Shown here piece after piece: positions 19,478 through 45,139 of a DNA stretch of 64,000 nt. How positions within the stretch are numbered: position 1 is the first letter of the stretch; each line of letters begins with the position of its first letter. The position numbers were made by a program, and so were the translations under genes. Origin of the DNA: Brevundimonas sp. M20 (GTDB taxonomy: Bacteria; Pseudomonadota; Alphaproteobacteria; Caulobacterales; Caulobacteraceae); assembly GCF_006547065.1 (NCBI RefSeq), contig NZ_CP041243.1, positions 2,309,001 to 2,373,000 on the forward strand. Reading direction: 5' to 3'. The notes below the pieces were generated by a model that was not told where the DNA came from, did no database searches, and was given only the letters and a program-made list of their open reading frames with translations.

Positions 19478-19933
19478 TCAGGCGAGGGCGATCATCAGGA
19501 CGCCGTCGATCAGCACGGCGCCGCCGACCGTCTCCAGCGCGAACTCGTACTGCAAGGCGGCGCCGGTGCGCGCGATCTGGGTGGCGCCGACCCGCAACGG
19601 GCCGTTGATGTCGTCCAGACGGTCCACATGCCAGTTGATGTTCGACAGGACCGCCAGGCTGCCGCCACGCCCCGGTTCGGCCTTGTCGCCGGTGAGAGAG
19701 GAGTGGATGGCGGCGGCCTGCGCCGCATACTCGATGCCGGCGGTGATCGGCAGGCGGTCGTGCGAGCGCAGGGGATTGTCGTCGGACAGATGCGAATTCG
19801 CCTCGCACAGGATGGCCGCGCCCTCGACCTTCAACACCCGCGCCAGCAGGCGCATGGCCCCGTCGTGGGGAACCAGCCGATGCAGTTCGGCGCCTTGCAG
19901 AATCGGTGCGTCAGACGCCCCCGTGGTCGCCAT
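19478..19933 (-). CDS. ApeP-like 3-hydroxyacyl-ACP dehydratase of the resorcinol module
   Basis: A 151-aa hotdog-fold dehydratase of the ApeP group. It has the L-V-P-H-D-G-A-M-R-L-L opening with the candidate catalytic His, and an I-E-Y-A-A-Q-A-A-A helix. It is paralogous to the apeP gene at 37226. It would dehydrate 3-hydroxyacyl-ACP intermediates. The ATG at 19933 was preferred over upstream in-frame starts because homologous length is about 150 aa. It is divergent from the next hotdog gene. Confidence 0.8.
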   Translation of the reverse strand: MATTGASDAPILQGAELHRLVPHDGAMRLLARVLKVEGAAILCEANSHLSDDNPLRSHDRLPITAGIEYAAQAAAIHSSLTGDKAEPGRGGSLAVLSNINWHVDRLDDINGPLRVGATQIARTGAALQYEFALETVGGAVLIDGVLMIALA

Positions 19934-20016
19934 GGTCAAGGCAGCCCCCCTTGCTTGCCAAGTCTTTGACCGTTCCATAAACCTGACCACGGTGGTTGGC
20001 GAGCAGTGAGCGATTG

Positions 20017-20304
20017 ATGAAACCGGCGCTGTCCGTCCCCCTCGACCACCCTGCCCTGCCGGGACACTTTCCGGGCAATCCGCTGGTGCCGGGCGTGATG
20101 ATCCTCGATCTTCTGGCTGACGACTGGCGTGAACTGTCGCCGGACAGGCCCTTGCGCGGGATCCGGAAGGCCAAATTCCAGCGGATGCTGGCTCCCGGAG
20201 AAAAGCTGAGCGTGGAGTGGGCCGAAATTCGTGACGACAAGGTCAGTTTTCGTGCCTTTGTCGGGGACGAAATTCTCGCTACAGGTCAGTTTGCACTGGC
20301 ATAA
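20017..20304 (+). CDS. ApeI/FabZ-like hotdog dehydratase of the resorcinol module
   Basis: A 95-aa hotdog protein. The H-P-A-L-P-G-H-F-P-G-N-P-L-V-P-G-V segment is the FabZ/ApeI signature containing the catalytic His. It is short for the family but retains the hot-dog helix and following strands. ApeI and ApeP act together as a dehydratase pair in aryl polyene synthesis, and this divergent gene pair repeats that partnership. The start has a weak GTGAG site. Confidence 0.75.
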   Translation: MKPALSVPLDHPALPGHFPGNPLVPGVMILDLLADDWRELSPDRPLRGIRKAKFQRMLAPGEKLSVEWAEIRDDKVSFRAFVGDEILATGQFALA

Positions 20305-20312
20305 CGTGGAAA

Positions 20313-20333
20313 ACGCTCGCCCCGCGCGAGCGT
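20313..20333 (+). terminator. Hairpin between hotdog gene and darA
   Basis: ACGCTCGC (20313-20320) pairs with GCGAGCGT (20326-20333) over a 5-nt loop, giving a strong 8-bp GC-rich stem 8 bp after a stop codon. No T-tract follows on the plus strand, so it may be a weak terminator, an attenuator or an mRNA-stabilising stem before darA. Confidence 0.4.
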
Positions 20334-20406
20334 AACCGCACCCGTCCGCGGGCGCCGGTGGAGTGGTTGTAGGGTTTTATGTGACTCTCGGGGGAGAATG
20401 CTCACG

Positions 20407-21357
20407 ATGCGCAAGGTGCTGGTCGTCTATTATTCGCAGACGGGACAGTTGGCCGACATCGTCGATGCGACGATCGCGCCGCTGAGGGCGAACGCGGACA
20501 TCGAGGTCACCGTCTCCGAGCTCAAGCCGAACAAGCCCTGGCCCTTCCCCTGGCCCTTCTTCCGCTTCTTCAACACCTTCCCAGAGACTGTCTATGAAGA
20601 CGTCGAACCGGCGGAGGCGCCCGGCGTCGATCCGGACGCCGACTATGATCTGGTGATCCTGGCCTATCAGGTCTGGTTCCTGTCCCCGTCCCTGCCGACC
20701 ATCGCTTTCCTGAAGTCCGAGGGCGCGCGCAAGCTGCTGGCCGGGAAGCCCGTCGTGACGCTGATCGGTTGCCGCAACATGTGGCTGATGGCGCAGGAGC
20801 GGATGAAGACACTGATCAGCGAACTGGGCGGGCGACTGGTCGACAACATCGTACTGACCGACAGCGCGCACAGCGCCTTCACCTTCGTCTCGACCCCGAT
20901 GTGGATGCTGACCGGCAAGAAGGGCCCGTTCCTGAACGGGCTGATCCCCGAGGCCGGGGTATCGAAGGAAGATGTCGCCGGCTGCGCCCGCTTCGGCCGC
21001 GCCATCGCCGCCGCCCTGCCGAAGCGCAAGCGCGAGGACAGCAGCCCGATGCTGGGCGGTCTGGGCGCCGTCACGGTGCGTGAGGGCCTGATCGAATCCG
21101 AGAAGACCGCCAAGCGCAGCTTCATGATCTGGGGCAAGCTTCTGCGCGCCACCGGCACGCCGTCGTCGGCCCTGCGTCAGCTGGTCATCGTGATCTATGT
21201 GCTGTTCCTGATCACCCTGATCCTGACGGTCGTGCCGCTGCTGGCCATCATCAAGGCGCTGCTCAAGCCGTTCCTGAAAGCCCATGTCGCCCGGCAACGG
21301 GCCTATTTCGCCGCTCCCTCCGGGGAATCCATGCAACTGATGGAAAGCCCCTCTTGA
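20407..21357 (+). CDS. darA: DarA-like dialkylresorcinol aromatase (flavodoxin-like)
   Basis: A 316-aa protein with an N-terminal flavodoxin-like fold. VLVVYYSQTGQ is the phosphate-binding loop, and a Y-Q-V-W-F-L-S-P segment follows at about residue 87. A C-terminal hydrophobic segment (about 263-292) predicts membrane attachment. DarA enzymes oxidise the cyclohexanedione made by DarB to a dialkylresorcinol. The second ATG (20407) is preferred because GGGGGAG sits about 10 bp before it; the first is at 20398. The stop overlaps the TTG start of darB. Confidence 0.82.
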   Translation: MRKVLVVYYSQTGQLADIVDATIAPLRANADIEVTVSELKPNKPWPFPWPFFRFFNTFPETVYEDVEPAEAPGVDPDADYDLVILAYQVWFLSPSLPTIAFLKSEGARKLLAGKPVVTLIGCRNMWLMAQERMKTLISELGGRLVDNIVLTDSAHSAFTFVSTPMWMLTGKKGPFLNGLIPEAGVSKEDVAGCARFGRAIAAALPKRKREDSSPMLGGLGAVTVREGLIESEKTAKRSFMIWGKLLRATGTPSSALRQLVIVIYVLFLITLILTVVPLLAIIKALLKPFLKAHVARQRAYFAAPSGESMQLMESPS

Positions 21358-22499
21358 CCCGCCCTGTCTACATTACGCGTACCGCCGCCTTCCTGCCGAA
21401 CGCCCCGGTGGGCAATGACGACATGGAGCGGATTCTGGGGCAGGTCGGGCCGCGTCCGTCGCGCGCCCGCCGCACCATCCTGCGTTCGAACGGCATCAAG
21501 AGCCGCCACTATGCGATCGACCCCGAGACGCTGAAGCCGACCCACACCAACGCCCAGCTGGCGGCCGAGGCCGTGCGCCTGCTGGATACCGATCTGGACG
21601 CTGTCGAATGCCTGGCGTGCGGCACCTCCAACCCCGACCAGATCATGCCGGGTCACGCCTCCATGGTGCAGGGTGAACTGGGTTTGCAGGACGTTCAGTC
21701 GGTTTCGACCGCAGGCGTGTGCATGAGCGGCATGGCTTCGCTGAAGTACGCCTGGCTGTCGGTCGCCGCGGGCGACACCGACGCGGCGGTGGCGACGGGA
21801 TCGGAAACCGCCTCGGCCGTGATGTCGGCGGCCAACTTCACGCCCGAGATCGACGCCCGGGTGGATGCGCTGGAAGATAACCCGGAGATCGCCTTCGAGA
21901 AGGATTTCCTGCGCTGGATGCTGTCGGACGCCGCGGGCGCCTTGCTGCTGGAGCCGGAGGCGCGAGCGGGCGCGCTGAACCTGCGCGTGGACTGGATCGA
22001 CCTGCACTCCTTCTCGGGCGAGATGGACACCTGCATGTACATGGGCGGGGTCAAGAACGAGGACGGCAGCATCACCGGCTGGGCCCAGTTCACGGCCGAG
22101 GAACGGGCCGCCCAATCCGTTCTGACCGTCAAGCAGGACGTGCGCCTGCTGAACGACAACGTCCTGCGCTACACGCTGGAGAAGCCCCTGCCCGGCATGG
22201 CCGCAAAGCGCGGCCTGAAGCCCTCGGATGTGGATTTCTTCCTGCCCCACTATTCGTCGGAGTTCTTCCGGGACCGGCTGTACCAGTCGATGCTGAACGT
22301 CGATTTCGACATCCCGCAGGAGCGCTGGTTCACCAATCTGACGACGCGCGGCAACACCGGCTCGGCCTCGATCTATGTAATGATCGACGAACTGCTGGCC
22401 AGCGGCCGGCTGAAGCCGGGTCATCGCCTGCTGTGCTGGGTGCCGGAAAGCGGCCGGTTCTCCGGCAGCTTCATGCACCTGACCGTGGTGCAGGGCTGA
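21354..22499 (+). CDS. darB: DarB-like ketosynthase/cyclase (KAS III fold)
   Basis: A 381-aa thiolase-fold ketosynthase. The nucleophile is Cys 123 in S-T-A-G-V-C-M-S-G. The catalytic His is in F-L-P-H-Y-S-S, and Asn in T-R-G-N-T-G-S. DarB condenses two acyl units and cyclises them to a 1,3-cyclohexanedione, the precursor of dialkylresorcinols. A TTG start overlaps the darA stop (TTGA). Length and motifs are normal for DarB. Confidence 0.87.
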   Translation: MTRPVYITRTAAFLPNAPVGNDDMERILGQVGPRPSRARRTILRSNGIKSRHYAIDPETLKPTHTNAQLAAEAVRLLDTDLDAVECLACGTSNPDQIMPGHASMVQGELGLQDVQSVSTAGVCMSGMASLKYAWLSVAAGDTDAAVATGSETASAVMSAANFTPEIDARVDALEDNPEIAFEKDFLRWMLSDAAGALLLEPEARAGALNLRVDWIDLHSFSGEMDTCMYMGGVKNEDGSITGWAQFTAEERAAQSVLTVKQDVRLLNDNVLRYTLEKPLPGMAAKRGLKPSDVDFFLPHYSSEFFRDRLYQSMLNVDFDIPQERWFTNLTTRGNTGSASIYVMIDELLASGRLKPGHRLLCWVPESGRFSGSFMHLTVVQG

Positions 22500-22502
22500 C
22501 CG

Positions 22503-22913
22503 ATGAAGACCGATGAGGTCCCGCAAGACCCATCCCTGACCCACGCGGGACAGCGCAAGCTGTTCTACGCCGTCGATGAACAGGGCGATTACACCGAGGT
22601 TCAGTCGCTGGGCTGGGATGTGGAATCCTACGCCACCCTGGCCGCCGTCGAGGTGCTGAACCAGCAGCGGGACGATGCATGGGAACGGGCGAAGGCGGGC
22701 CTGACCGCGCCGCTGGAGTACCATATGTACCGACGCCGCATGGACCGGGCCAGCTTCGCTTCGGCCACCGGCTTCTGGCGCTGGCGGACCTCGCGCCACT
22801 TCAAGCCCGCCGTGTTCGCCCGCCTGCCGGACACGATCCTGAACCGTTACGCAGAGGTGCTCGGCATGAGCGTCGAGGGCCTGCGGAGCCTCCCTGCCGC
22901 GCCGGACGCCTGA
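22503..22913 (+). CDS. Unrecognised 136-aa protein between darB and the btrH-like gene
   Basis: Function not recognised. It is a soluble, charged 136-aa protein with no signal peptide or membrane segment. Visible landmarks are R-K-L-F-Y-A-V-D near residue 20, H-M-Y-R-R-R-M-D in the middle, and F-W-R-W-R-T near residue 90. It starts 3 bp after darB and ends 4 bp before the btrH-like gene. This strict coupling suggests a partner or accessory enzyme in resorcinol formation or esterification. Confidence 0.75.
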   Translation: MKTDEVPQDPSLTHAGQRKLFYAVDEQGDYTEVQSLGWDVESYATLAAVEVLNQQRDDAWERAKAGLTAPLEYHMYRRRMDRASFASATGFWRWRTSRHFKPAVFARLPDTILNRYAEVLGMSVEGLRSLPAAPDA

Positions 22914-22917
22914 GCCC

Positions 22918-23904
22918 ATGAGCGACTTCCACCACCGTCAGTCCGCGCATTGCGAAAGCGGCGTGGTCGCGAACATGCTGACCCACCACGGCCTGCCGAT
23001 GAGCGAGCCGATGGCCTTTGGTCTGTCGGCCTCGCTGACCTTCGCCTACATGCCGATCATCAAGCTGGCCGGGATGCCGCTGATCGCCTACCGCATGTTG
23101 CCGGGGAACATCATCAAGGGCGTCGAGAAGCGTGTCGGCATGCGCTGGGAGCGCACACGGTTCAGCGACCCGGCCGAGGCCGAACGGGCGCTGGACGCCG
23201 CGCTGGACGCCGGGCGGGCGGTCGGGCTGCAAACCTGCGTCTACTGGCTGCCCTATTTCCCGGAGCAGATGCGGTTTCACTTCAACGCCCACAATCTGGT
23301 GGTCTACGGGCGCGAGGGGGACGACTATCTGGTCAGCGATCCGCTGTTCGAAACCACCGTCCGCTGTGATCGCGCCTCGATGCAGCGCGCCCGCTTCGCC
23401 AAGGGCGACATGGAGCCGAAGGGGCTGATGTACTACCCGACCGGCACACCGGGCGAGGTCGACTACGCGACCGAAATCCCCAAGGCCATCCGCTGGAACG
23501 CCAAAACGATGCAGGCCCCGGTGCCGATCGCCGGGGTGAAGGGCATCCGCTTCCTGGGGCGGAACATCGTGAAGCTGTCGCGCGATGCGAACCGCGACAC
23601 CTACCTGCCGCTCTATCTGGGCCACATCGTGCGGATGCAGGAGGAGATCGGGACCGGCGGGGCCGGGTTCCGCTTCATCTATGCATCCTTCCTGCAGGAG
23701 GCGAGCCGCCTGCTGGGCCAGCCCGCGCTGGCCGACGCAGCGAAGGACCTGACGGCGGCGGGCGACGAGTGGCGGCGGTTCGCCCTGCGCGCCAGCAAGA
23801 TGTGCCGGGGGCGGGCGCAGATGGATGTGCACGAGCTGGACGCCATCCTGAACGGCATCGCCGACAGGGAACTGGCCGTCTGGAAGAGCCTCCGGCACGT
23901 TTAA
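22918..23904 (+). CDS. BtrH-like acyltransferase, candidate ester synthase
   Basis: A 328-aa cytosolic protein with a BtrH N-terminal domain. The H-C-E-S-G-V-V motif near residue 11 supplies a Cys-protease-like nucleophile, and F-N-A-H-N-L-V-V-Y near residue 121 supplies the His. The C-terminal half matches the helical DUF4872 partner domain. BtrH transfers an acyl group from an ACP to an amine in butirosin synthesis. Here the likely reaction is transfer of an aryl polyene from ACP to a resorcinol hydroxyl. It overlaps the convergent KS-like gene by 4 bp. Confidence 0.75.
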   Translation: MSDFHHRQSAHCESGVVANMLTHHGLPMSEPMAFGLSASLTFAYMPIIKLAGMPLIAYRMLPGNIIKGVEKRVGMRWERTRFSDPAEAERALDAALDAGRAVGLQTCVYWLPYFPEQMRFHFNAHNLVVYGREGDDYLVSDPLFETTVRCDRASMQRARFAKGDMEPKGLMYYPTGTPGEVDYATEIPKAIRWNAKTMQAPVPIAGVKGIRFLGRNIVKLSRDANRDTYLPLYLGHIVRMQEEIGTGGAGFRFIYASFLQEASRLLGQPALADAAKDLTAAGDEWRRFALRASKMCRGRAQMDVHELDAILNGIADRELAVWKSLRHV

Positions 23905-24785
23905 CCGCGCCGGACCTCCAGCAGGATGGCCGCATAGCCGCCGCTGTCGTTGGCGTTGACCTGAAGCAGCACCTCGGCGTCGCCGTCGCGGATGAAGTCG
24001 CCCAGGGCGCCGACGCTCTGGCTGTCGTAGCAGGCGCGGCCGTCGGCGGCGTCGGTCAGGCGGCTCAGCCCCGCCTCACGCATCACGCCCGCGACCTCAT
24101 CCGACGGCAGATACTGGCCGCGGTTGAAGACGGTGCGCGCCGGGTCCAGCGTCTGTTTCGCCAGCCAGTCGGACAGGGCCGCGCGGTCCGCGAAGAAGTC
24201 GACCGAACGCAGGGCTGACGGCCCCTGTCCGTCCGCGCGGAGCCAGAGCCAGTGACTGGCCTCGGCGACCGGCGTGCCGTCCTCCAGTCGCAGGCGGCGG
24301 CGGTGCACCTCCATCGGCCCCGTGGCGATATCGACCGAACCGACCAGCGCCGAGCTGACCAGCCCCGTCTCGATATCCAGCAGGGCCAGCTGAAGCGCCG
24401 TCTCGAAGCTGAAGTGGGTGTTGCTGAGGAAGCAGCTGCGTCCATGCAGGCCGAAATGGCGCGCGACGTAGAAGCAGGCGGCGTTCGACACCGTGTTGAT
24501 GAAGCTGAGCGGCTTGGGCGGTTCGCCGTGTTTGAACAGCGGCTCCATCACTTCCAGCGTCACCTCCAGATCGCCCCGGCGCGAAGCCATGTAGACGGCG
24601 GTTTCGGCAGGCGGGGTCTCCGCGCCGACGCAGCGGGCGGCGCCGATCAGGGCCGACTGGATGAAGCGGCCGATCCGACGCACCGGCTTGCCGGTTTCGG
24701 CGGTCAGCAGGGCGCGCAGGTCCGGCGGGATGTCTTCGACGGGGGCGTAATAGTCGCCCAGGGCGTGGATCAGGACTTCAGTCAT
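23901..24785 (-). CDS. Ketosynthase-like protein lacking the active-site Cys
   Basis: A 294-aa beta-ketoacyl-synthase-like protein, shorter than a full ketosynthase. The region aligning with the nucleophile elbow reads F-L-S-N-T-H-F-S-F-E, where the normal Cys position is His. It should therefore not condense acyl groups by itself and may act as a chain-length-factor subunit of the ketosynthase encoded just upstream. It overlaps that gene by 8 bp. ApeC is the analogous subunit in the aryl polyene set. Confidence 0.75.
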   Translation of the reverse strand: MTEVLIHALGDYYAPVEDIPPDLRALLTAETGKPVRRIGRFIQSALIGAARCVGAETPPAETAVYMASRRGDLEVTLEVMEPLFKHGEPPKPLSFINTVSNAACFYVARHFGLHGRSCFLSNTHFSFETALQLALLDIETGLVSSALVGSVDIATGPMEVHRRRLRLEDGTPVAEASHWLWLRADGQGPSALRSVDFFADRAALSDWLAKQTLDPARTVFNRGQYLPSDEVAGVMREAGLSRLTDAADGRACYDSQSVGALGDFIRDGDAEVLLQVNANDSGGYAAILLEVRRG

Positions 24786-25959
24786 CGACGTTCGCGATCA
24801 CGAGCGAGGTGTTGTTTCCGCCGAAGCCGAAATAGTTGAGCATGAAGACGCCCGGCGCCATGGGCTGCGGGGTCTGGAACAGGCTGATCCCCAGTTCGCC
24901 CGGCTCGGCGCAGACGCCCGGGACGGCCGGGAAATACCCCTGCTCCAGCAGGGCGCAGAACAGGATCAGTTCATTCAGGCCGCAGGCGCCGAAGGTGTGG
25001 CCGATGAAGGGCTTGAGCGCGCAGAGCGGCGGCACGGTCCCGAAGGCGCGGGCCATGCCGGCGGCCTCGGCCTCGTCATTCAGCAGGCTTGCGGTGCCGT
25101 GGGTCTTGATGCCCGCGATGCGTCCGGCCTCGACGCCCGCCGAGTCGAGGGCGCGCTGGATGACCTCAAGCACGGTGCTGCCGTCCGGGTTGGCGGCGGA
25201 CATGCCGAAGATGTCGCAAAGGTTGGCGGCGCCGCGCAGGTGGAAGCCCGAGCTCGCCAAGGCCCCCGCCCCGTTCCCCCGCCGCTTGCCGCCGCTGACC
25301 ACCACCGCGCCGCAGCCCTCGCCGGGAACCAGTCCGCCGCGCGCGCTGTCAAACGGCTTCATCGTGCCGGTCTTCGACAGCAGGTTCAGTCCCTGGAAGC
25401 CCATGGCCGTGATGATGTTCAGGCTCTCGGAACTGACCACCAACGCATGTCCGGCCCGGCCGCTGCGGATCAGGGCGTCGCCGTAGATCAGGGCGTTGGC
25501 GCTGGCCGTGCAGGCGGTCGAAACGGTGTAGTCCGGGCCGCCCAGACCGAAACGGCGACGCAGCCGCTCGGCCAGACGGCCGAGGTTGTTGTTGTGGGTC
25601 AACGGATGGGCGTCCAGCCCTTCAGCCAGTTCGCGTTGATAGATCGCCTCGGACCGCGAGATATCGACCGACGACGAACCGAGCAGAAGGATCGTGTCGG
25701 CGCGCTCCGCGGCGGTGAGGCCGGCGGCCTCGATCGCCTCGGCGCAAACGGCCTCCAACACCGATTCTAGCCGGTTTTCGATATCGACGAGCGGTCGATC
25801 CTTGAGCAGCAGGGCGGGCACGACCGCGCGCAGTCCGCCCGCCTCAAGCGGGACGGACGCGGCGTCCGGGGGTGGCGCGAACAGGGCCGCGACATTGGCG
25901 GCGACGTCCTGTCCAAGGCAGGTGTGGAGCCCCGCCCCGACGAAATAGCTCCGGCTCAT
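24778..25959 (-). CDS. Beta-ketoacyl-ACP synthase (FabF-type) of the resorcinol module
   Basis: A 393-aa FabF-like ketosynthase with complete catalytic residues: Cys 150 in V-S-T-A-C-T-A-S, His in K-T-H-G-T-A-S and His in I-G-H-T-F-G-A-C-G. The end N-Y-F-G-F-G-G-N-N-T-S is family-typical. It overlaps the ACP gene (4 bp) and the KS-like gene (8 bp), forming an ACP-KS-CLF-like unit. It probably elongates the acyl chains consumed by DarB or those of a second polyene. Confidence 0.88.
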   Translation of the reverse strand: MSRSYFVGAGLHTCLGQDVAANVAALFAPPPDAASVPLEAGGLRAVVPALLLKDRPLVDIENRLESVLEAVCAEAIEAAGLTAAERADTILLLGSSSVDISRSEAIYQRELAEGLDAHPLTHNNNLGRLAERLRRRFGLGGPDYTVSTACTASANALIYGDALIRSGRAGHALVVSSESLNIITAMGFQGLNLLSKTGTMKPFDSARGGLVPGEGCGAVVVSGGKRRGNGAGALASSGFHLRGAANLCDIFGMSAANPDGSTVLEVIQRALDSAGVEAGRIAGIKTHGTASLLNDEAEAAGMARAFGTVPPLCALKPFIGHTFGACGLNELILFCALLEQGYFPAVPGVCAEPGELGISLFQTPQPMAPGVFMLNYFGFGGNNTSLVIANVDD

Positions 25960-26246
25960 GCGGGCGGCGCGGCCTTGGCGGCGATAATGAAGTCAGCCAG
26001 CGCATTGATACTGGCGAAGGCCTTGCGTCCGTCCGGCCCGCCCTCGATCCGCACGCCGTACTGCTTTTGAATCGCCAGACTGACCTGGAGTGCGTCGAGC
26101 GAATCGAGATCCAGTGATCCGCCCATCAGCGGTTCATCGACCGGCATGTCGGCGGGGTCGATATCCTTGTCGCACTCTTCGATGATGAGGCGTTTCAGCG
26201 CCTCGACCAGTTCGTTGTGGTCCATCGGGCTTGTCATCGGGCTCAC
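25956..26246 (-). CDS. Acyl carrier protein of the resorcinol module
   Basis: A 96-aa acyl carrier protein. The phosphopantetheine attachment site is Ser 49 in L-D-L-D-S-L-D-A-L. It is acidic with helical ends. A GTG start overlaps the upstream transporter stop (GTGA), and the gene overlaps the ketosynthase gene by 4 bp. It would carry the chain for the adjacent KS pair after activation by the phosphopantetheinyl transferase at 43898. Confidence 0.88.
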   Translation of the reverse strand: MSPMTSPMDHNELVEALKRLIIEECDKDIDPADMPVDEPLMGGSLDLDSLDALQVSLAIQKQYGVRIEGGPDGRKAFASINALADFIIAAKAAPPA

Positions 26247-28545: not shown

Positions 28546-28546
28546 A

Positions 28547-28576: not shown

Positions 28577-28600
28577 ACCCCCCTGTCATCAGGAGGGGTT

Positions 28601-32040: not shown

Positions 32041-32043
32041 GAC

Positions 32044-37229: not shown

Positions 37230-37681
37230 CCGAGTTCCCCCCCATTGAGGCGCTGATCGTCCACCGTGCCGGCATGCTGCTGATCGACCGGATCATCGGC
37301 CGGGAGGACGAGGTCGTGACCAGCGAGGTGGTGATCCGTTCTGACCAGCTCTTCTTTCAGCCCGGACGCGGCGTACCCGCCTATGTCGGCTTCGAGCTGA
37401 TGGCGCAGACGATCAGCGCCTCGGACGGACTGGACCGACGCGACGAAGGTTTGCCGCCCGTCGTCGGCCTGCTGCTGGGTTGTCGGAAATATGCTGTCTC
37501 CCGCACCTTCTTCACCCAGGGCGAGCGGCTGGTGACCGAGGTGACGCCCCTGATCAGCGACGAGGGCATGACCGCCTTCCGCTGCCGGATTCTGGACGAC
37601 GCCGGGGAAGAACTGGCCAGCGCCACCATCAACGCCTACCGCCCCGACGACCTGTCGGCCTTCCTGCGATCACAGCAATGA
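37226..37681 (+). CDS. apeP: ApeP-like dehydratase
   Basis: A 151-aa hotdog-fold dehydratase. It shows the I-V-H-R-A-G-M-L-L-I-D-R start and F-E-L-M-A-Q-T-I-S-A helix. ApeP forms a complex with ApeI that dehydrates 3-hydroxyacyl-ACP to build the conjugated chain. It overlaps apeO and apeQ by 4 bp each. The gene at 19478 is a second copy of this type. Confidence 0.88.
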   Translation: MTEFPPIEALIVHRAGMLLIDRIIGREDEVVTSEVVIRSDQLFFQPGRGVPAYVGFELMAQTISASDGLDRRDEGLPPVVGLLLGCRKYAVSRTFFTQGERLVTEVTPLISDEGMTAFRCRILDDAGEELASATINAYRPDDLSAFLRSQQ

Positions 37682-38412
37682 CACAAGACAACCTGAAGCG
37701 ACCCGTTCTGGTCACCGGCGCCAGCAAGGGCATCGGCCGCGAGGTCGCCCTGCATCTGGCGCGCGCCGGTCATCCCGTCACAGTCCACTACGGCGGCGAC
37801 CGCGCCGGCGCCGAGGCCGTGGTTCAGGCCATCGTTGAGGCGGGCGGCGTGGCGGATGTGCTGGGCTTCGACGTCCGGGACCGTGACGCCACGCGTGACG
37901 CCCTGGTCGCCCGCATCGGGGAGGACGGCTTCTGGGGCGTGGTGCTGAGCGCCGGGGTGACCCGCGACAACGCCTTCCCCGCCATCGACGGAGCCGACTG
38001 GGATGTGGTCCTGCGGACCAATCTGGACGGCTTCTACAATGTGCTGCAGCCGCTGATCATGCCGATGATCCGGCGTCGGGACGGCGGGCGGATCGTGGCC
38101 ATCGCCTCGGTCTCCGGCGTGATCGGCAACCGCGGACAGGTGAACTACAGCGCCTCCAAGGCCGGGCTGATCGGCGCCGCCAAGGCGCTGGCGGTCGAGC
38201 TGGCCAAACGCAAGATCACCGTCAACTGCGTCGCCCCCGGCCTGGTCGAAACGGCCATGAGCGACGAGATCCCCAAGGAGATCGTGGACGCCGTTCCGAT
38301 GCAGCGCATGGGCACGGTGCGCGAAGTCGCGGCGGCCGTCGGGTTTCTGTTTTCACCGGACGCGGGCTATATCACCCGTCAGGTTCTGGGCGTGAACGGG
38401 GGGTTGATTTGA
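37678..38412 (+). CDS. apeQ: ApeQ-like 3-ketoacyl-ACP reductase (FabG family)
   Basis: A 244-aa short-chain dehydrogenase. The cofactor loop is T-G-A-S-K-G-I-G, the catalytic Ser is in I-A-S-V-S-G, and Tyr/Lys are in N-Y-S-A-S-K. The C-terminal V-L-G-V-N-G-G motif is FabG-like. It reduces the 3-keto group after each condensation. It is the only ketoreductase in the cluster, so it may also serve the resorcinol module, which lacks one. Confidence 0.92.
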   Translation: MTQDNLKRPVLVTGASKGIGREVALHLARAGHPVTVHYGGDRAGAEAVVQAIVEAGGVADVLGFDVRDRDATRDALVARIGEDGFWGVVLSAGVTRDNAFPAIDGADWDVVLRTNLDGFYNVLQPLIMPMIRRRDGGRIVAIASVSGVIGNRGQVNYSASKAGLIGAAKALAVELAKRKITVNCVAPGLVETAMSDEIPKEIVDAVPMQRMGTVREVAAAVGFLFSPDAGYITRQVLGVNGGLI

Positions 38413-39638
38413 CGCGTCGTGTCGTGGTGACCGGCATGGCCGGCGTCACCGCCCTGGGGGGCGAATGGGCTGAAATCGAGCGCCGCATGCGCGCAGGCGA
38501 GACCGGCACGCGCCGCATCGCCGACTGGGAGCGCCTGACGGACCTGACCTGCAAGGTCGGCGCCCCGGCGTCCTGGTTCGTCCACGAAGGCCGCTATCAC
38601 CGCCAGAAGTCCCGCTCGATGGGCCGGGTCGGCATCATGGCGGTCGACTCGGTCGAGCGCGCGTTAGCCCAGGCCGGCCTCACCGATGATCCGGTGCTGA
38701 AGACCGGCCGGACGGGCGTGGCCTGCGGTTCATCGTTCGGCTCGACCGACCCGATCCGGGACTTCGTGCACTTCCTCGAAACGGGCAAGGCGGGCGGGCT
38801 CAACGCCACCAGCTATATCCGCATGATGGCGCACACGGCCGCGGTGAACATCAGCGTCTTCTTCGGCCTGACCGGCCGGGTGATCACCACCTCCTCGGCC
38901 TGCACCTCGGGCTCGCAGGGCGTGGGCTACGGTTATGAGACCATCCTGCACAATCAGGCGGACATCATGATCGTGGGCGGGACCGAAGAGTTCTGTCCCA
39001 GCATGGCGATGGTCTTCGACCGCCTGTACGCCACCAGCTCGAACGGCAACGATACGCCGGAATCCGCCTGCCGCCCGTTCGAAGCCAGCCGCGACGGCAT
39101 GGTGACAGGCGAAGGCGCGGGCTTCCTGATCCTTGAGGAGCGGGAGCACGCGCTGGCGCGCGGCGCGACCATTCTGGCCGAGGTGACGGGCTTCGCCACC
39201 AACGCCGACGGCGCCCACATCTCGCACCCGGCGCGGGAGACCCAGGAACGGGTCATGCGTCAGGCCATGGAAATGGCCGGGATCGGCGTCAGCGACATCG
39301 CCTTCATCAGCGGGCACGGCACCGCGACCGTCGCGGGCGACGTGGTCGAGAGCCAGGCCACCCAGGCGGTCTATGGCAAGGACGTGCCTTTCCACACCCT
39401 GAAGGGCCATTTCGGTCACTCGCTGGGGGCCTGTGGCGGCATCGAGGCCTGGCTGGGCGTGGAGATGCTGCGGACGGGGTGGATCTCGCCCATCGCCAAC
39501 TTCCACGAGCACGACCCGCGTTGCGCCGAACTGGACTACGTCGGCGTGGGCGGACGCGTGATCGACGGGGACTACTTCGTGTCCAACAACTTCGCCTTCG
39601 GCGGCATCAACACCTCGCTGGTGTTCAAGCGGGCCTGA
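38409..39638 (+). CDS. apeR: ApeR-like beta-ketoacyl-ACP synthase
   Basis: A 409-aa FabF-type ketosynthase with Cys 165 in T-S-S-A-C-T-S-G, His in G-H-G-T-A-T and His in F-G-H-S-L-G-A-C-G. It starts at TTG overlapping the apeQ stop (TTGA). ApeR is the second, independent ketosynthase of APE systems. It ends the plus-strand operon 18 bp before the convergent apeI stop. Confidence 0.92.
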   Translation: MTRRVVVTGMAGVTALGGEWAEIERRMRAGETGTRRIADWERLTDLTCKVGAPASWFVHEGRYHRQKSRSMGRVGIMAVDSVERALAQAGLTDDPVLKTGRTGVACGSSFGSTDPIRDFVHFLETGKAGGLNATSYIRMMAHTAAVNISVFFGLTGRVITTSSACTSGSQGVGYGYETILHNQADIMIVGGTEEFCPSMAMVFDRLYATSSNGNDTPESACRPFEASRDGMVTGEGAGFLILEEREHALARGATILAEVTGFATNADGAHISHPARETQERVMRQAMEMAGIGVSDIAFISGHGTATVAGDVVESQATQAVYGKDVPFHTLKGHFGHSLGACGGIEAWLGVEMLRTGWISPIANFHEHDPRCAELDYVGVGGRVIDGDYFVSNNFAFGGINTSLVFKRA

Positions 39639-39656
39639 CCTCAGCCCGGACCGGCA

Positions 39657-40022
39657 TCAGGCCAGATCGCCGACGTCGCCCTGTGAGGCCGGCGACCCGT
39701 TCAGCTTGAACACAAACGACAGCCCGCCCGTCGACGGGTAGTGGCGCAGCTCCAGCACCACGACGTCGCCGGGCGCCAGCACGCGGCGGAATTTCAGCCG
39801 CGAGATGGTCGCGCTGGACGGCCAGCCGCCCCATACCCGCTCGGCCAGCAGCACGGCCAGATGAGCCTGTGACACGCCCGGCAGGATGGGCTGGCCGGGG
39901 AAATGGCCGTCGAAATAGATCAGCTCGGGGACGAGGGTGAAGGCGATCTCCGCCGTCGTCTCGCCGGTGCGCCGGATATCCAGATCAAGCACGTCCAGCG
40001 GACTGGAAGCAGTCGGGGTCAT
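39657..40022 (-). CDS. apeI: ApeI-like dehydratase
   Basis: A 121-aa hotdog dehydratase. D-G-H-F-P-G-Q-P-I-L-P-G-V is the catalytic-His motif. It is the partner of ApeP. It is the last gene of the minus-strand operon and overlaps apeH by 4 bp. The conserved motif matches the protein at 20017, which is shorter. Confidence 0.88.
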   Translation of the reverse strand: MTPTASSPLDVLDLDIRRTGETTAEIAFTLVPELIYFDGHFPGQPILPGVSQAHLAVLLAERVWGGWPSSATISRLKFRRVLAPGDVVVLELRHYPSTGGLSFVFKLNGSPASQGDVGDLA

Positions 40023-41338
40023 GGGCGGCTCCCCTGCGGCGCGCCGAACAGGGCGCTGAGCGTGGACAGGATACGCTTGCCCTGGCTGTTGGTCTCGATG
40101 CGGTCAACGAAGCGCCAGTATTTCGGGCGTTCGGCGCTCTCCAGCAGGGGAGAGACAGCGGCGCGCAGGCGGCGGGACAGGCGGAATGTCCCCTCCTCCG
40201 CCAGCACGGCCTGACCGGCGAGGGTCAGCTCGACCACCGCGCCCAGCGCGCCCTTGTGATCCGACAGCGAAAGGGCGGCGACGGCCGCGATCTCTGGCAG
40301 TCGGCCCAGCATGTCCTCGACCCGGGCCAGCGAGACCCGCTTGCCGTCGATCTTCACGATCCGGTCACCGCGCGGCTTCAAACGAAAGCGGCCGTCGGGC
40401 TGCTGGTCGATGACGTCGCCCGTCCGCTCGGGCCCGTCGTCCTGCAGATAGGGCGAGCGGACGATCAGGGCCTGCGTCTCATCCGCGGTGATCGAGACGT
40501 CCGGGAATGGGGTCCAGAGGGCATCAGGCGCGGTCTGACGGCGCCAGGCGAGGCCGCCCGTCTCGGTCGAGCCGAGCACCTCGGTGGCCGGGCGACCGAA
40601 GACCGTCACGCACTCAGCCGCCGCATCGGTCGGCAGGAGCTGGCCGGAGGAAAAGATCAGACCGGGCGTCGGCTGGTACATCTCCACGCGCGGCGACAGA
40701 CGGGTCAAATGGGCCGGGCTTGAGACCAGCGTGCCCCCCCCGAAACGGCCTTCGAGGTTCTCCCAATAGACGGCGGGAGCGTCGTCGCTGACCCGACCGG
40801 ACATGATCGGCCAGACCACGCGGAAGAGGAAGCCGTAGAAATGTTGATGGGAGACGGTCGAAATGACCGGCCCCGCCTCCGCGCCCCAAAGGTTGTCCAG
40901 AGCTCGCGCCTCGACCTCAAGCCGGGACAGGTTCTTGCGGACACGCTTGGGCGCGCCCGAGGAGCCCGAGGTGAAGAAATCGATGACCGGGTCCGTGACG
41001 GCGTCAGCCAGCGCGGCGACATCGCCATCCAGCAGACCCCCGAAAAGGTCGTCGGTGATCAGGGCCTCGGGCGGACAGCCGATCTCGGCCAGATACTCCG
41101 GCTGGGCGTGGGCGGGCATGGCGATCATCCGCCCGGCCGCGGCGGCGGCGAGAAGACTGGCGGTCAGGTGCGCGGCGGACGCCACGCTGAGGAAGACCGT
41201 GTCGCGCGTGGCCTGTACACGCGGCAGAAGGGCGGCGGCCAGACGTCGGACGTCGCCCGCCGTCACGACCTCGCCGTCGCGCTGGAACAGCGGACGGGCG
41301 GCGTCGGTCTGGATCAGGGTCTGGATAAGGCCGTTCAT
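40019..41338 (-). CDS. apeH: ApeH-like acyl-AMP ligase
   Basis: A 439-aa AMP-binding enzyme. The phosphate loop is F-F-T-S-G-S-S-G-A-P-K. An E-V-L-G-S-T-E-T-G segment (motif A5) and a R-T-G-D region follow, with C-terminal Lys in N-S-Q-G-K-R. In APE synthesis it activates the aromatic starter, such as 4-hydroxycinnamate or 4-hydroxybenzoate, and loads it on an ACP. The substrate should come from the lyase at 29559. It overlaps apeI and apeG by 4 bp. Confidence 0.88.
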   Translation of the reverse strand: MNGLIQTLIQTDAARPLFQRDGEVVTAGDVRRLAAALLPRVQATRDTVFLSVASAAHLTASLLAAAAAGRMIAMPAHAQPEYLAEIGCPPEALITDDLFGGLLDGDVAALADAVTDPVIDFFTSGSSGAPKRVRKNLSRLEVEARALDNLWGAEAGPVISTVSHQHFYGFLFRVVWPIMSGRVSDDAPAVYWENLEGRFGGGTLVSSPAHLTRLSPRVEMYQPTPGLIFSSGQLLPTDAAAECVTVFGRPATEVLGSTETGGLAWRRQTAPDALWTPFPDVSITADETQALIVRSPYLQDDGPERTGDVIDQQPDGRFRLKPRGDRIVKIDGKRVSLARVEDMLGRLPEIAAVAALSLSDHKGALGAVVELTLAGQAVLAEEGTFRLSRRLRAAVSPLLESAERPKYWRFVDRIETNSQGKRILSTLSALFGAPQGSRP

Positions 41339-41904
41339 CGTGCTTCCATGGCGCGCCGGGCTAAGGGACGCACCACCAGCTCGCCGACGATCAGGACACC
41401 GATCAGCCCATAGGAGACGCCGGCGTTGTAGAGGGTCCAGACATGCCAGTCGGCCCAGATGGCGGTCCAGACCGCGACGGCGCCGTTCAGAACGAAGAAG
41501 CCGGTCCAGATCATGGTGACCACGCGGGTGTAGGCGACTCCGCTGGGCGGCAGGTCCGGATCGGTCATCCGCGCGAACCGCTCGATCATGCTGGGACCGC
41601 GCAGAAGCGTCTGACCGAAGGCGAGGAACATCGCCGCGTTCATGAAGGCCGGATAGAGCCGGACCGACAGCTCGCGATCAAACAGGGCCACCGTCACCAG
41701 CCCCCCCGCCGCCAGCAACAGCCCCAAGGTCAGGGCTCCGGGCGTGCGACGGGCGCGGTCAGACAGGGTGCGCAGAAGCAGGAAGGCCAGCAGCCCGCCG
41801 ACCACCCATCCGGGTCCGACGGTGCGCACCGCGATCGCGGCGACGACAGGGTAGAGTACCGAGGTTGCGACTAGCAGAACCGCCGGTACATCAACCTTGG
41901 GCAT
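41335..41904 (-). CDS. apeG: ApeG-like multi-pass membrane protein (COG4648 type)
   Basis: A 189-aa integral membrane protein with about six hydrophobic segments (about residues 6-24, 28-46, 57-75, 85-100, 128-150 and 155-178). It matches the small predicted membrane protein always found between ACP and AMP-ligase genes in APE clusters. Its biochemical role is unknown; assembly of enzymes at the membrane is possible. It overlaps apeF by 14 bp and apeH by 4 bp. Confidence 0.8.
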   Translation of the reverse strand: MPKVDVPAVLLVATSVLYPVVAAIAVRTVGPGWVVGGLLAFLLLRTLSDRARRTPGALTLGLLLAAGGLVTVALFDRELSVRLYPAFMNAAMFLAFGQTLLRGPSMIERFARMTDPDLPPSGVAYTRVVTMIWTGFFVLNGAVAVWTAIWADWHVWTLYNAGVSYGLIGVLIVGELVVRPLARRAMEAR

Positions 41905-42151
41905 GCTTCTTCTGGGCGAGGTTCAGCACGTCGTCGATCGTGCGGATGCCGCGGAACTCGTCCGGTTCGATCTTGCGGCCGGTGATTTCCTTCAGCTGGA
42001 CCATCAGATCGATCGCGTCGATCGAGTCGAGGTTGAGCTGCTCCACCAGATCGGCTTCGGGCGTGATCAGGTCACGGGGCACGTCGAAGGCGGAGACGAG
42101 ATACTCCTTGATCTCGGAATAGATGGTCTCACGTTCCATGACGGCGCTCAT
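41891..42151 (-). CDS. apeF: ApeF-like acyl carrier protein
   Basis: An 86-aa ACP. The phosphopantetheine site is Ser 43 in L-N-L-D-S-I-D-A-I. It is acidic and helical. Its ATG overlaps the stop of apeE. Two adjacent ACP genes are characteristic of APE clusters; one is thought to carry the starter and the other the growing chain. Confidence 0.92.
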   Translation of the reverse strand: MSAVMERETIYSEIKEYLVSAFDVPRDLITPEADLVEQLNLDSIDAIDLMVQLKEITGRKIEPDEFRGIRTIDDVLNLAQKKHAQG

Positions 42152-42420
42152 TGCTTCAGGGCCTTCTGCTGGGCCACGAAGGCGATCAGGGCGTTGATCG
42201 TCTGGAAGTGGCTGTGCAGTTGCTTGTCATCAACATCGATCTTGATGTCGAACTTCTTCTGCAGCGCGACCCCGATCTCCAGCGCGTCGATGGAATCGAG
42301 CGCCAGACCGGTATTGCCGAACAGATCCTCGTCGGCGCCGATGTCATCCGGGGTGATGTCCTCGAGGTTCAGGACCTCGATGATCGCGGATTTCATCTCG
42401 AATTCGGTGGGTGTCGTCAT
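42148..42420 (-). CDS. apeE: ApeE-like acyl carrier protein
   Basis: A 90-aa ACP with Ser 43 in L-A-L-D-S-I-D-A-L as the attachment site. The ATG at 42420 was chosen over an upstream in-frame start because it overlaps the apeD stop (ATGA) and gives a normal ACP length. It is the second of three carrier proteins in the window. Confidence 0.92.
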   Translation of the reverse strand: MTTPTEFEMKSAIIEVLNLEDITPDDIGADEDLFGNTGLALDSIDALEIGVALQKKFDIKIDVDDKQLHSHFQTINALIAFVAQQKALKQ

Positions 42421-43178
42421 GCGGCAAGCAGTTCTTCTATTCGGCGCTCCACCTGCATGCACAGGCTCCTGGCGGCGATGGCGGATTGAATGGATTGGTC
42501 CGGAACGTCAATATGTTCATGGACCTGGATGACCCAGTGAGCGCGCCGACTGGGGACTTTGTACCACGGCTCGCCCTTCAGCAGGGTCGGCGGACTGCAG
42601 GTGATGGTGACCAGTCGGACCGGCGCCTGTGAGCGGTGGGCGATATAGGCGAAGCCCCGCTGGTACTTCGGCTTGACGCCCGGCGGCGTGCGCGAACCCT
42701 CGGGGAAGATGACCAGATTGTTCCCGGCCTCCAGCGCCGCGACACAGTCCTCGATCAGCCGCTCGGGATCGTTCTCGTTGGGAATATAGTTGGCCGCCGT
42801 CACCACGCCGCGCATGAACGGATTGCGCCAGACCCCCGCCTTCACCACGCATTGGGTCCGCTCCATCAGCGACATGATGAAGACGATGTCGAGCAGGGAG
42901 GGGTGGTTGGCGATGACCAGTGTGCCCCGGTCATTCCGCAGCAGCTCGGCGCCGTGAACCTCGTAGGAAACGGCCCCGAGGAAGACCATGATCCGCACAT
43001 AGGTGCGCCAGACGCGGTGTACGGTCTGCTGGGCGATGCGGGTCCGCTGCTCCCGATCGCGGACAAGCAGGTTGATCAGCGGGAAGACCACGATGGCGAG
43101 GAACAGCCCCCCCAGCCCGAACAGGGCGAAGGACGTGCCCGTCGCGATCAGCAGCCAGAATCTTGCGAGCGCCTTCAT
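42417..43178 (-). CDS. apeD: ApeD-like 1-acylglycerol-3-phosphate-type acyltransferase
   Basis: A 253-aa membrane acyltransferase of the PlsC type. An N-terminal TM lies at about residues 10-38. The acyltransferase motif N-H-P-S-L-L-D is near residue 92, followed by the F-P-E-G-S-R block near residue 160. It probably transfers the polyene chain to a lipid or glycolipid acceptor. It overlaps apeC and apeE by 4 bp each. Confidence 0.88.
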   Translation of the reverse strand: MKALARFWLLIATGTSFALFGLGGLFLAIVVFPLINLLVRDREQRTRIAQQTVHRVWRTYVRIMVFLGAVSYEVHGAELLRNDRGTLVIANHPSLLDIVFIMSLMERTQCVVKAGVWRNPFMRGVVTAANYIPNENDPERLIEDCVAALEAGNNLVIFPEGSRTPPGVKPKYQRGFAYIAHRSQAPVRLVTITCSPPTLLKGEPWYKVPSRRAHWVIQVHEHIDVPDQSIQSAIAARSLCMQVERRIEELLAA

Positions 43179-43825
43179 GCCGCCAGCGCGTCCAGTCGCG
43201 GCGGCGAGAAGGTCAGACGCGTCTGTCCGGCCCTCAGGGCGTTGACCACCGCCAGTGCGCCGGTGCGCCCGGGGGTGACCACGACGCCCTCCCCGCCGTC
43301 ACCCACCAGGGCGAGGGTCATGGCGATGAACACGCCGGGGGTGGCCTCATCCAGATCGGCGTAGAGGCCCGAAAGGCGCTCGTCGGCGTGCACCAGAACG
43401 ATGGAGGAGGCCTCCCCGGTCGTCAGCTGGGCCCAGGCCTCGACCAGACCGGCCGACAGGGTCGCCGTATCGCCGCCGATGGAAATCTGATCGCCCGGAC
43501 CTTCAATGGACAGGCTCAGCGCGCCCAGCGGGGCGTTATGGACCGACAGGCCGAACAGGGACGGCGACAGCAACTCGTTCCGCGCGATGTCGCTGAGCAG
43601 GGTCACGGTGCTGTCGAGATCGCCGTTGGGGCTGGACAGCACTACCGGCGTTCCGGGCCGATCGCGCAGCAGCGGCAGGGCGCATTGAAGGACATTGCGG
43701 GTGAAGGCAGGCAGGCGGCGGCGTTGCTGCACAGGGATGGCGGAGGCGTCCTCAGCCACGCCAAAACGCTCATCGCTCTCTGAAGAGAGGATGGCGCCCC
43801 ATGCGGTCACACCCAACGCTAGCAC
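43175..43825 (-). CDS. apeC: ApeC-like chain-length factor (Cys-less ketosynthase)
   Basis: A 216-aa truncated ketosynthase-like protein of the length typical for ApeC. The position of the active Cys lies in I-S-I-G-G-D-T-A-T-L-S, without Cys. In APE systems it forms the KS-CLF complex with ApeO. GTG 43825 was preferred over GTG 43849 because a G-rich ribosome-binding stretch lies 8-14 bp upstream of it; both are possible. It is the first gene of the apeC-I operon. Confidence 0.82.
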   Translation of the reverse strand: MLALGVTAWGAILSSESDERFGVAEDASAIPVQQRRRLPAFTRNVLQCALPLLRDRPGTPVVLSSPNGDLDSTVTLLSDIARNELLSPSLFGLSVHNAPLGALSLSIEGPGDQISIGGDTATLSAGLVEAWAQLTTGEASSIVLVHADERLSGLYADLDEATPGVFIAMTLALVGDGGEGVVVTPGRTGALAVVNALRAGQTRLTFSPPRLDALAA

Positions 43826-43897
43826 TGTCCCACATCCCCCGACGTTCACCTTGCAACCTATATGGCTGCACGGGGCAGTTCAATATAATCCGGGGTA

Positions 43898-44419
43898 ATG
43901 CAGCGCACCCATCGATCCCTGACGGCGAGCTATGCTGTTCGATTTATAGCAAAGTTTCCCCGCGACGCCCGCGTGCCGCGCCCGATCCAGAGCGAAGCGG
44001 CGGCGAGCCTGCTGGCCGAATTGAGGGCTGGAACCGGACTGTTCGAAGGTCCGTCGTCCAGGGCGCACAGCCGGAACGGGATCGCCGTGGCCGCGACGCC
44101 GGAAGGCCGGATCGGCATCGACATCGAGCATCGTCTTCCAACGCGGCCGATCCGGGACATCGCCCGGCTGCTGATGGACGCCACGCCGACGGACGACGAC
44201 GCCGCCTGGCGGGTGTTCACCTTCCACGAAGCCTACTTCAAGGCGTTCGGCGAGATGGCGGGCCCAGCGCGACTGCGCGCTGTGGCGGGCACGACAACCC
44301 CGACCTACCGCACGACGGAGGGGCTGAACGTCCTGCATGAGACTGTCGACGGAGATTTCGCCCTGACGCTGGTCTGGGACGGCCCCGTTGAAGCGGTCCG
44401 ACTACCGGGCGAAGACTGA
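43898..44419 (+). CDS. 4'-phosphopantetheinyl transferase
   Basis: A 173-aa Sfp-like transferase. R-I-G-I-D-I-E-H (Asp 75, Glu 77) is the Mg-binding motif. F-H-E-A-Y-F-K-A-F-G (Glu 111, Lys 115) is the second motif, with His in place of the usual Lys before Glu. It activates ACPs by adding the phosphopantetheine arm. It is divergent from apeC, so it probably serves the three cluster ACPs. The 3' end overlaps the convergent glycosyltransferase by 18 bp. Confidence 0.88.
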   Translation: MQRTHRSLTASYAVRFIAKFPRDARVPRPIQSEAAASLLAELRAGTGLFEGPSSRAHSRNGIAVAATPEGRIGIDIEHRLPTRPIRDIARLLMDATPTDDDAAWRVFTFHEAYFKAFGEMAGPARLRAVAGTTTPTYRTTEGLNVLHETVDGDFALTLVWDGPVEAVRLPGED

Positions 44420-45139
44420 AACCCACAGCTTGCGGATCAGGCGGAACGGGGCCTGCAACGCCAGCCGGGTGTGCATCTTCGATATCCGCACATTGTCGGC
44501 CAGCATCTCGAAATTGGAGACGTTGTCCGGCGGATAGATGACCTTGGTCGGCAGGTTCACCACGGGCGTCCCGCGCCAATGCATGTGCACGGCCATTTCG
44601 GTGTCGAAATCCATGCGCGAGCCGATTCTGGTCCCCGCGATGACCTCGGCCACCTTGGGCAGCGGGTAGAGGCGGAAGCCGCACATCGAGTCGGCGATGG
44701 CCAGCGAAGCGGTCTCGATCCACACCCAGACGTGGGTGATCCATCGACCGATCTTGCGCGCCCTGGGCACGCTTTCGTCATAGACCGCCTGACCGCAAAT
44801 CAGGGCCTCGGGCCGCTGCCGCGAGGCCTCGATGAAGCGGTGGACGTCCTCGATGTCATGCTGACCGTCGGCGTCGATCTGGAGGGCGTGGGTGAAGCCC
44901 TGGGCGATGGCTTCGCGGAAGCCCGTCAGGACCGCCACGCCCTTGCCCGCATTGACGTCCAGCCGCAGGACCTGAACGCCGTTGGAGGGATCATGCAGGG
45001 CGGCGATTTCAGAGCGCACGGGCTCCGTATTGCCGTCGTCAACAATCAGGACGTGGTCGCAAAGCTCAACCAGCCGTCGCGACAGACGCGGCAGCTGGCT
45101 GACATGGCGATAACTCGGAACAACGGCGCACAAGCGCAT
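44402..45139 (-). CDS. Family 2 glycosyltransferase of the aryl polyene cluster
   Basis: A 245-aa GT2 enzyme. V-V-P-S-Y-R-H, the I-V-D-D-G segment, and Q-I-D-A-D-G-Q-H-D give the nucleotide-sugar and metal site. Dolichyl-phosphate-mannose-synthase-like architecture is present without a TM domain. In APE clusters this domain is often fused to an LpxL-like acyltransferase. Here it is a separate gene on the other side of the cluster. It may glycosylate the lipid anchor. Confidence 0.83.
   Translation of the reverse strand: MRLCAVVPSYRHVSQLPRLSRRLVELCDHVLIVDDGNTEPVRSEIAALHDPSNGVQVLRLDVNAGKGVAVLTGFREAIAQGFTHALQIDADGQHDIEDVHRFIEASRQRPEALICGQAVYDESVPRARKIGRWITHVWVWIETASLAIADSMCGFRLYPLPKVAEVIAGTRIGSRMDFDTEMAVHMHWRGTPVVNLPTKVIYPPDNVSNFEMLADNVRISKMHTRLALQAPFRLIRKLWVSVFAR

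Follow-up and report, generated by a model that had tools for sequence, protein, structure and literature searches.

Pigments that unite an aryl polyene (APE) with a dialkylresorcinol (DAR) are represented by arcuflavin in Azoarcus sp. BH72 (PMC3949708) and by flexirubin in Chitinophaga pinensis and Flavobacterium johnsoniae (PMC3992019), and APE clusters have been studied in Escherichia coli CFT073, Xenorhabdus and Acinetobacter (PMC8253772, PMC8358021); what is said here of these systems follows the consulted sections of the four papers. This study concerns a locus of Brevundimonas sp. M20 that occupies positions 19478-45139 of the window, the stretch of 64,000 nucleotides analysed (2309001-2373000 of a single-contig genome of 3.3 Mb). 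The locus holds a DAR module and an APE module placed head to tail (Table 1). With a probability of roughly 0.77, the two modules form an APE-DAR hybrid pigment cluster contained in a single locus, whose product would be an ester of an aryl polyene and a DAR, of the flexirubin/arcuflavin type. Such a pigment would probably be yellow and sit at the cell surface. The core enzymes of both pathways are present by sequence, with catalytic residues intact where checked. A hybrid pathway that includes its own joining step, as an earlier note on this DNA had proposed, is the best reading, given the predicted fold of DarH and the co-occurrence of the two modules. The pigment group itself is known; what is unusual here is a hybrid encoded at a single locus and rare in its own genus.

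Arcuflavin was aptly chosen as a precedent in the earlier note. The Azoarcus system and the present one share the dar genes A, B, D, E, F, I, C, J and K, an APE-type type II system, a halogenase-like gene, LolA and exporter genes, and the Azoarcus darG and darH are other genes than those so named here (PMC3949708). By mass spectrometry (MS), the Azoarcus pigment is a DAR-polyene containing both parts, for which an ester was proposed; polyene mutants are colourless, and the pigment gives no alkaline shift (PMC3949708). The Azoarcus polyene starts from 3-hydroxybenzoate (XanB2-type ArcB) and bears a methionine-derived methyl group, and its DAR locus and two arc loci are unlinked (PMC3949708), whereas the present cluster is one locus with an MIO lyase, in which no methyltransferase was found. 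Of the 39 genomes with polyene clusters listed in the same study, 16 have DAR genes, nine of these within or beside the polyene cluster, and its authors considered in 2014 that such pigments are more widespread than realised (PMC3949708).

Flexirubin likewise combines a DAR with an aryl polyene, using an ammonia-lyase and an AMP ligase for the starter (PMC3992019). Besides three missed flexirubin-specific NCBIfam models (scores below), two differences argue against a plain flexirubin here. A scan of the genes at 19478-45139 found no methyltransferase, including any of the ApeB type, so an unmethylated head group is expected, whereas that of C. pinensis, from a different phylum, is methylated and tyrosine-derived (PMC3992019); and FlxA is reported to have a motif like that of histidine ammonia-lyase (PMC3992019), whereas the lyase studied here has Phe-His. 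The APE clusters of E. coli, Xenorhabdus and Acinetobacter share the set and order of ApeC-I and ApeK-R, and among solved structures ApeO, ApeC and ApeR are closest to those of such systems (6qsp is ApeO-ApeC and 4ewg an ApeR; PMC8358021). Those clusters start from 4-hydroxybenzoate; a methyltransferase is present in Xenorhabdus and, as ApeB, in E. coli, which also has ApeJ; their consulted descriptions mention no DAR genes (PMC8253772, PMC8358021). In the studied locus, the functions of ApeJ appear to be split over a lipid A-type acyltransferase (LPLAT) gene and a family 2 glycosyltransferase (GT2) gene 15 kb apart.

DarH as a candidate joining enzyme

The step that joins polyene to resorcinol has no tested enzyme in the consulted sections of the two founding papers (PMC3949708, PMC3992019). 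DarH belongs to a family that, like that of DarG, is already held in NCBIfam 20.0. Its predicted structure (model pLDDT 88.4) matches CtaG, CcbD and the AziU2-U3 chain over the full length, at identities of 9-20% over the alignments. Cys12, His125 and Asp141 sit as in C39 folds, judged by the secondary structure of the predicted model, and are invariant in all 80 loci that were compared (the best 80 of 286 DarH-relative stretches in the GTDB genome set, to which the counts of 80 loci below refer). DarH matches the three proteins in fold and itself holds a Cys, a His and an Asp of the catalytic type. CtaG and CcbD are carrier-protein-dependent joining enzymes of the C39 fold; the proposed product of DarH is a phenolic ester rather than an amide. 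DarH is probably an acyltransferase dependent on a carrier protein, and we propose it as the polyene-resorcinol ester synthase.

A wider proposal would make DarH the general ester synthase of APE-DAR pigments (C39-fold, carrier-dependent, forming a phenolic ester) and, if the lyase here is of the phenylalanine rather than the tyrosine type, would predict a new compound class, an unmethylated phenyl-polyene-DAR ester without alkaline shift, perhaps under the control of an Xre-like DarG. Taken as a whole, this proposal is speculative and rather doubtful.

Co-occurrence of the two modules and competing explanations

The best 80 DarH loci are labelled Alpha-, Gamma- and Betaproteobacteria, Desulfobulbales-type and Campylobacterota. 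Seventy hold darA, darB, darG and darH together and 64 hold both ABC genes; within 10-kb flanks, many of them on short contigs, at least ten (L016, L028, L029, L035, L060, L070, L073, L079, L084, L088) carry two or more clear APE genes. Closer to the studied strain, a sample of 398 genomes from the order yielded DarH in 10 (7 of 59 genera); it occurs in 5 of 390 genomes of the family, where the four others all belong to one genus (g13), and in 1 of 131 of the genus. ApeP also occurs in 1 of the 131, the same genome, and neither protein had a match in the other 130. The unusual lineage claimed in the earlier note is therefore only partly borne out: the gene set is widespread, and its rarity holds within the genus and for the one-locus arrangement.

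When four ApeO candidates were scored per genome, 17 of the 398 genomes of the order had one at E 1e-80 or better, among them all ten DarH genomes. DarB was matched at E 1e-60 in 41; the nine matches above the family cut-off are all from DarH-positive genomes, the tenth of which encodes DarB as two pieces. The remaining 31 score 277-357 bits, below the cut-off, and look like a different, StlD/DarB-like ketosynthase; this protein is also present in ten DarH-less genomes of the genus and was matched in the control Caulobacter vibrioides.

Thirteen DarH genomes of the order, the studied one included, were examined at closer range. ApeO is encoded in all 13, at 47-69% identity in the other 12. The two modules adjoin only in the studied locus and in G533; they lie 0.40 Mb apart in G247 and 1.84 Mb apart in G477, each on one contig, and on different contigs in the other nine. 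Because both modules are kept even where they are unlinked, a joint function is a better explanation than hitch-hiking. The search of related genomes suggested in the earlier note also brought to light, in G573, a run of the same 20 genes, LPLAT through GT2, arranged in identical order and showing 49-80% identity, which excludes a chance arrangement. In G554 (C8 and C5; L144, L145, L196, L206), both DarB and the lyase are broken into two reading frames, possibly by sequencing errors or decay.

The alternative that survives best, which we consider improbable, is that two separate pigments are made: an APE placed on a membrane lipid through ApeD, LPLAT and GT2, and a free DAR lipid exported by the ABC-2 system, the genes being neighbours by chance or as genes for outer-membrane lipids. 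ApeD, LPLAT and GT2, with their ApeJ-like functions, are indeed present, and in E. coli such enzymes are proposed to attach the APE to a lipid anchor (PMC8253772). The DarH fold, however, is that of carrier-protein-dependent acyl-joining enzymes, for which a pathway to a free DAR would have no use. Seven of the 17 ApeO genomes lack DarH and, of the 12 other DarH genomes examined in the order, 11 have the modules apart, but neither DarH nor DarB above its cut-off occurs without ApeO in the order sample. Among 50 DarH genomes from outside the order, 26 gave an ApeP match (22 above the cut-off). The 24 misses are labelled Desulfobulbales-type (10), Campylobacterota-type (11), Rhodocyclaceae, Gallionella and an unplaced metagenome-assembled genome (one each); they may reflect diverged genes or incomplete metagenome-assembled genomes, or a DAR made without an APE. 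Finally, the Azoarcus strain with such a DAR set makes a pigment in which MS detected both parts (PMC3949708).

Apart from these genomic counts, several observations weigh against the hybrid. The Azoarcus ester was proposed from MS, and the mutations studied there affected polyene genes rather than dar genes (PMC3949708); for flexirubin, the ligase-like FlxW was suggested for the joining step (PMC3992019). Sequence searches with DarH returned no relative of CtaG, CcbD or AziU2-U3, the link being one of fold only. DarB misses the stricter resorcinol_DarB model NF053539 (480 of 550 bits). The NCBIfam models for the FlxA tyrosine ammonia-lyase (313 of 700 bits for the lyase), FlxB (242 of 340) and flexirubin_DarG (127 of 170) were all missed as well; by these models the locus does not classify as a flexirubin cluster, although it may still function like one. 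The lyase, by its distribution in the sequences compared, tracks the APE rather than the hybrid: in the three loci read from ApeO genomes without DarH, it is present in G235 and G514, and the stretch read in G572 has none.

A decayed or silent cluster that makes no pigment is very improbable: DarH and ApeP are sporadic in the genus, but all genes are open, the checked ketosynthase, acyl carrier protein (ACP), MIO and DarH residues are intact, and copies 96% (lyase) and 98% (DarA) identical, perhaps from the same species, exist in other data sets.

Starter unit and proposed pathway

In an alignment of the lyase with 120 matches (121 rows), the selectivity dyad is Phe-His in 107 and Tyr-His in 14, and all 121 have NQD at motif 2; the studied lyase has Phe at the Tyr/Phe selectivity position and Gln in motif 2. 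It scores 386 of the 539 bits required by the curated HutH (histidine ammonia-lyase) model. In MIO lyases, His at the selectivity position denotes tyrosine, Phe denotes phenylalanine and Ser-His denotes histidine, and by this rule the substrate leans toward phenylalanine. FlxA breaks the rule, and substrate specificity is held not to be readable from lyase sequence (PMC3992019), so the starter may be cinnamate or 4-coumarate, and the product may or may not have the tyrosine-derived 4-hydroxyphenyl head, with its alkaline colour shift, of a flexirubin in the strict sense. Orthologues of the lyase occur in all 13 DarH genomes examined, at 62-77% identity in the other 12, with a frame change in one and one stop in another.

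In the proposed pathway, the MIO lyase would deaminate tyrosine or phenylalanine to 4-coumarate or cinnamate, and ApeH would adenylate this acid and load it onto an Ape ACP. ApeO-ApeC and ApeR would extend it with malonyl units, with reduction by ApeQ and dehydration by ApeI-ApeP, to give an aryl polyenoyl-ACP. DarJ-DarK, DarC and the two hot-dog proteins would supply acyl partners, hd2 perhaps giving an enoyl thioester to DarB; DarB would join and cyclise these partners and DarA would aromatise the product to a 2,5-dialkylresorcinol. DarH would then take the polyenoyl group from the ACP onto Cys12, assisted by His125 and Asp141, and pass it to a resorcinol hydroxyl as a phenyl ester. The ABC-2 exporter and ApeL/M/N would carry the pigment to the outer membrane.

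Tailoring of the head group may fall to the halogenase-like flavin adenine dinucleotide (FAD) enzyme; no methyl group would be expected there. Halogenases carry a Lys and a WYWLIP-type motif, and the enzyme retains both (Lys73 and WYWLIP). The Azoarcus arcA is halogenase-like, yet the pigment is not brominated (PMC3949708), which makes halogenation by this enzyme uncertain.

Gene content, origin and significance

Table 1. Features of the locus, from profile scans against Pfam and NCBIfam (20.0) with cut-offs curated per family. Counts of DarH loci refer to the best 80 of 286.
Feature	Coordinates	Strand	Evidence
hd1, hot-dog dehydratase-like, head of DAR module	19478..19990	-	resemblance and place; start codon uncertain; tblastn match in 16/80 DarH loci, mostly beside hd2-darA
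hd2, FabZ/ApeI-like dehydratase	19996..20304	+	PF07977 26.2 bits (cut-off 23); tblastn match in 22/80 DarH loci, ApeI cross-matches possible
darA, DAR aromatase (dialkylresorcinol condensing enzyme)	20398..21357	+	87% identity to Brevundimonas sp. protein so named
darB, DAR-forming ketosynthase	21354..22499	+	NF005293 581.8 bits (cut-off 450); Cys123/His299/Asn334
darG (Azoarcus name darD)	22503..22913	+	NF053536 166 bits (cut-off 70); C-terminal part predicted Xre/Cro-like helix-turn-helix
darH (Azoarcus name darE), candidate carrier-protein-dependent acyltransferase	22918..23904	+	NF053550 480.4 bits (cut-off 300); BtrH_N + DUF4872
darK, ketosynthase-like partner	23901..24785	-	PF00109 25.9 bits (cut-off 20.8); His and Glu replace ketosynthase catalytic Cys and first His in alignment
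darJ, ketosynthase, Cys intact	24778..25959	-	PF00109/PF02801
darC, ACP, LDSLD	25956..26246	-	PF00550 26.4 bits
darI-type ABC-2 permease	26243..27442	-	PF12698 116 bits
darF-type ABC ATPase	27439..28374	-	PF00005 112 bits; start codon chosen in analysis
LPLAT (acyltransferase half of ApeJ function)	28679..29566	+	PF03279 39.6 bits; start chosen in analysis
MIO aromatic amino acid ammonia-lyase	29559..31103	+	PF00221 521 bits; ASGD, Phe-His dyad, NQD motif
apeK-type 4HBT thioesterase	31106..31528	+	PF13279 37.2 bits
apeL, LolA-like carrier	31525..32040	+	PF19574 (LolA_3) 26.9 bits (cut-off 23)
apeM, RND/HpnN-like exporter	32044..34257	+	weak: HpnN 55.9 bits, far below cut-off; SecD_SecF_C 24.1 (cut-off 20.5)
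halogenase-like FAD enzyme	34238..35470	+	PF04820 87 bits; best PDB 3nix 319 bits
apeN, DUF3261 protein	35467..36063	+	PF11659 85 bits
apeO, ketosynthase	36063..37229	+	NF006618 431 bits (cut-off 407); best PDB 6qsp_A, also 7f28_B
apeP, dehydratase	37226..37681	+	PF22817 50.5 bits (cut-off 27)
apeQ, FabG-type ketoreductase	37678..38412	+	TIGR01831 350.6 bits (cut-off 338.85)
apeR, ketosynthase	38409..39638	+	best PDB 4ewg 445 bits, 7f27 421 bits
apeI, dehydratase	39657..40022	-	PF22818 40.9 bits (cut-off 28.5)
apeH, AMP-forming aryl-ACP ligase	40019..41338	-	PF00501 31.2 bits (cut-off 29.9); best NCBIfam 4-coumarate-CoA ligase 109 bits, below cut-off
apeG, membrane protein	41335..41904	-	position and homologues in APE loci
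apeF, ACP	41891..42151	-	NF003757 94 bits (cut-off 65)
apeE, ACP	42148..42411	-	NF006617 72 bits (cut-off 70)
apeD, PlsC-type acyltransferase	42417..43178	-	PF01553 61 bits
apeC, chain-length-factor partner of ApeO	43175..43849	-	PF13723 120 bits; best PDB 6qsp_B, also 7f28_A
probable phosphopantetheinyl transferase	43898..44419	+	weak: PF01648 22.7 bits, below cut-off 25
GT2 (glycosyltransferase half of ApeJ function)	44402..45139	-	PF00535 51 bits
small secreted protein, perhaps of APE locus	45158..45640	-	start uncertain

The gene classes listed in the earlier note (apeK-R, apeC-I, darA, darB, a BtrH-like protein, lyase and ABC-2 exporter) are present, and most families are supported, the phosphopantetheinyl transferase match being weak; hd1, darA and apeG had no match in Pfam or NCBIfam. 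The DAR module runs hd1 (-), hd2-darA-darB-darG-darH (+), darK-darJ-darC-permease-ATPase (-), and the APE module runs LPLAT, lyase, thioesterase, LolA, exporter, FAD enzyme, apeN-O-P-Q-R (+), apeI-H-G-F-E-D-C (-), transferase (+), GT2 (-). The canonical ape order that had been claimed holds for K-R (+) and for the I-to-C run (-), and is interrupted by the FAD gene between M and N. Each module has its own pair of ketosynthase and chain-length-factor-like proteins. All cluster genes are open, without internal stops, and their G+C by codon position is as expected for coding sequence. The checked residues are intact throughout, apart from the ketosynthase-like darK with its His and Glu, and Cys123/His299/Asn334 of DarB are invariant in an alignment covering 69 of the 80 loci. 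The structures 7f27 and 7f28 are of the A. baumannii proteins.

The secreted-protein gene at 45158-45640 may extend the cluster to 45640. It has no Pfam match; of 11 APE segments from the order, 8 hold a homologue, as do two Pseudomonas loci, whereas both segments of the nearest group, g33, lack one. One genome has six divergent tandem copies of this type (L221:1771-4588).

The cluster looks complete and was probably gained horizontally. In an APE tree (six proteins, 13 rows), the studied genome joins a pair of genomes from a different family (f3, g33) with support of 100, and a grouping with g13, which belongs to its own family, is rejected (approximately unbiased test, p 0.00025; FastTree agrees, and the group to be tested was chosen after its result was known). 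The DAR tree groups the genome with one of those two and with L009; since L009 is labelled Caulobacteraceae, this tree is by itself no clean evidence of inter-family transfer. G+C is flat (67.3% in the cluster, 68.0% in the window). Synteny with the genus genomes read is seen on the right flank and is lacking on the left.

Several neighbouring genes were also noted. A second plsX stands at the cluster edge (18291-19325, -), and is 61-69% identical to 11 copies from the genus and to the other copy in this genome, whereas those share 70-98% with one another; that other copy is at C1:1853628 beside a fabH-like gene, and plsX had no match in the 80 DarH loci. Further left lie a gene for a DUF4402 protein by large genes without a clear Pfam family, usher-like by eye (12270-17605, -), a LuxR-type response regulator (17665-18309, +) and a CHASE3 hybrid histidine kinase (9126-11618, +). 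At the right edge are a PagL-type lipid A deacylase (45787-46452, +), with no match in the four genus stretches read, and OmpW (46502-47266, -), syntenic in two of the four.

Of the 12 other DarH genomes examined in the order, one has both modules in a single locus. The predicted fold of DarH, its invariant residues and its co-occurrence with APE in the order single out one testable candidate for the joining step. The locus also lends weight to the view, put forward by the arcuflavin authors, that pigments of the flexirubin type do not mark Bacteroidota.

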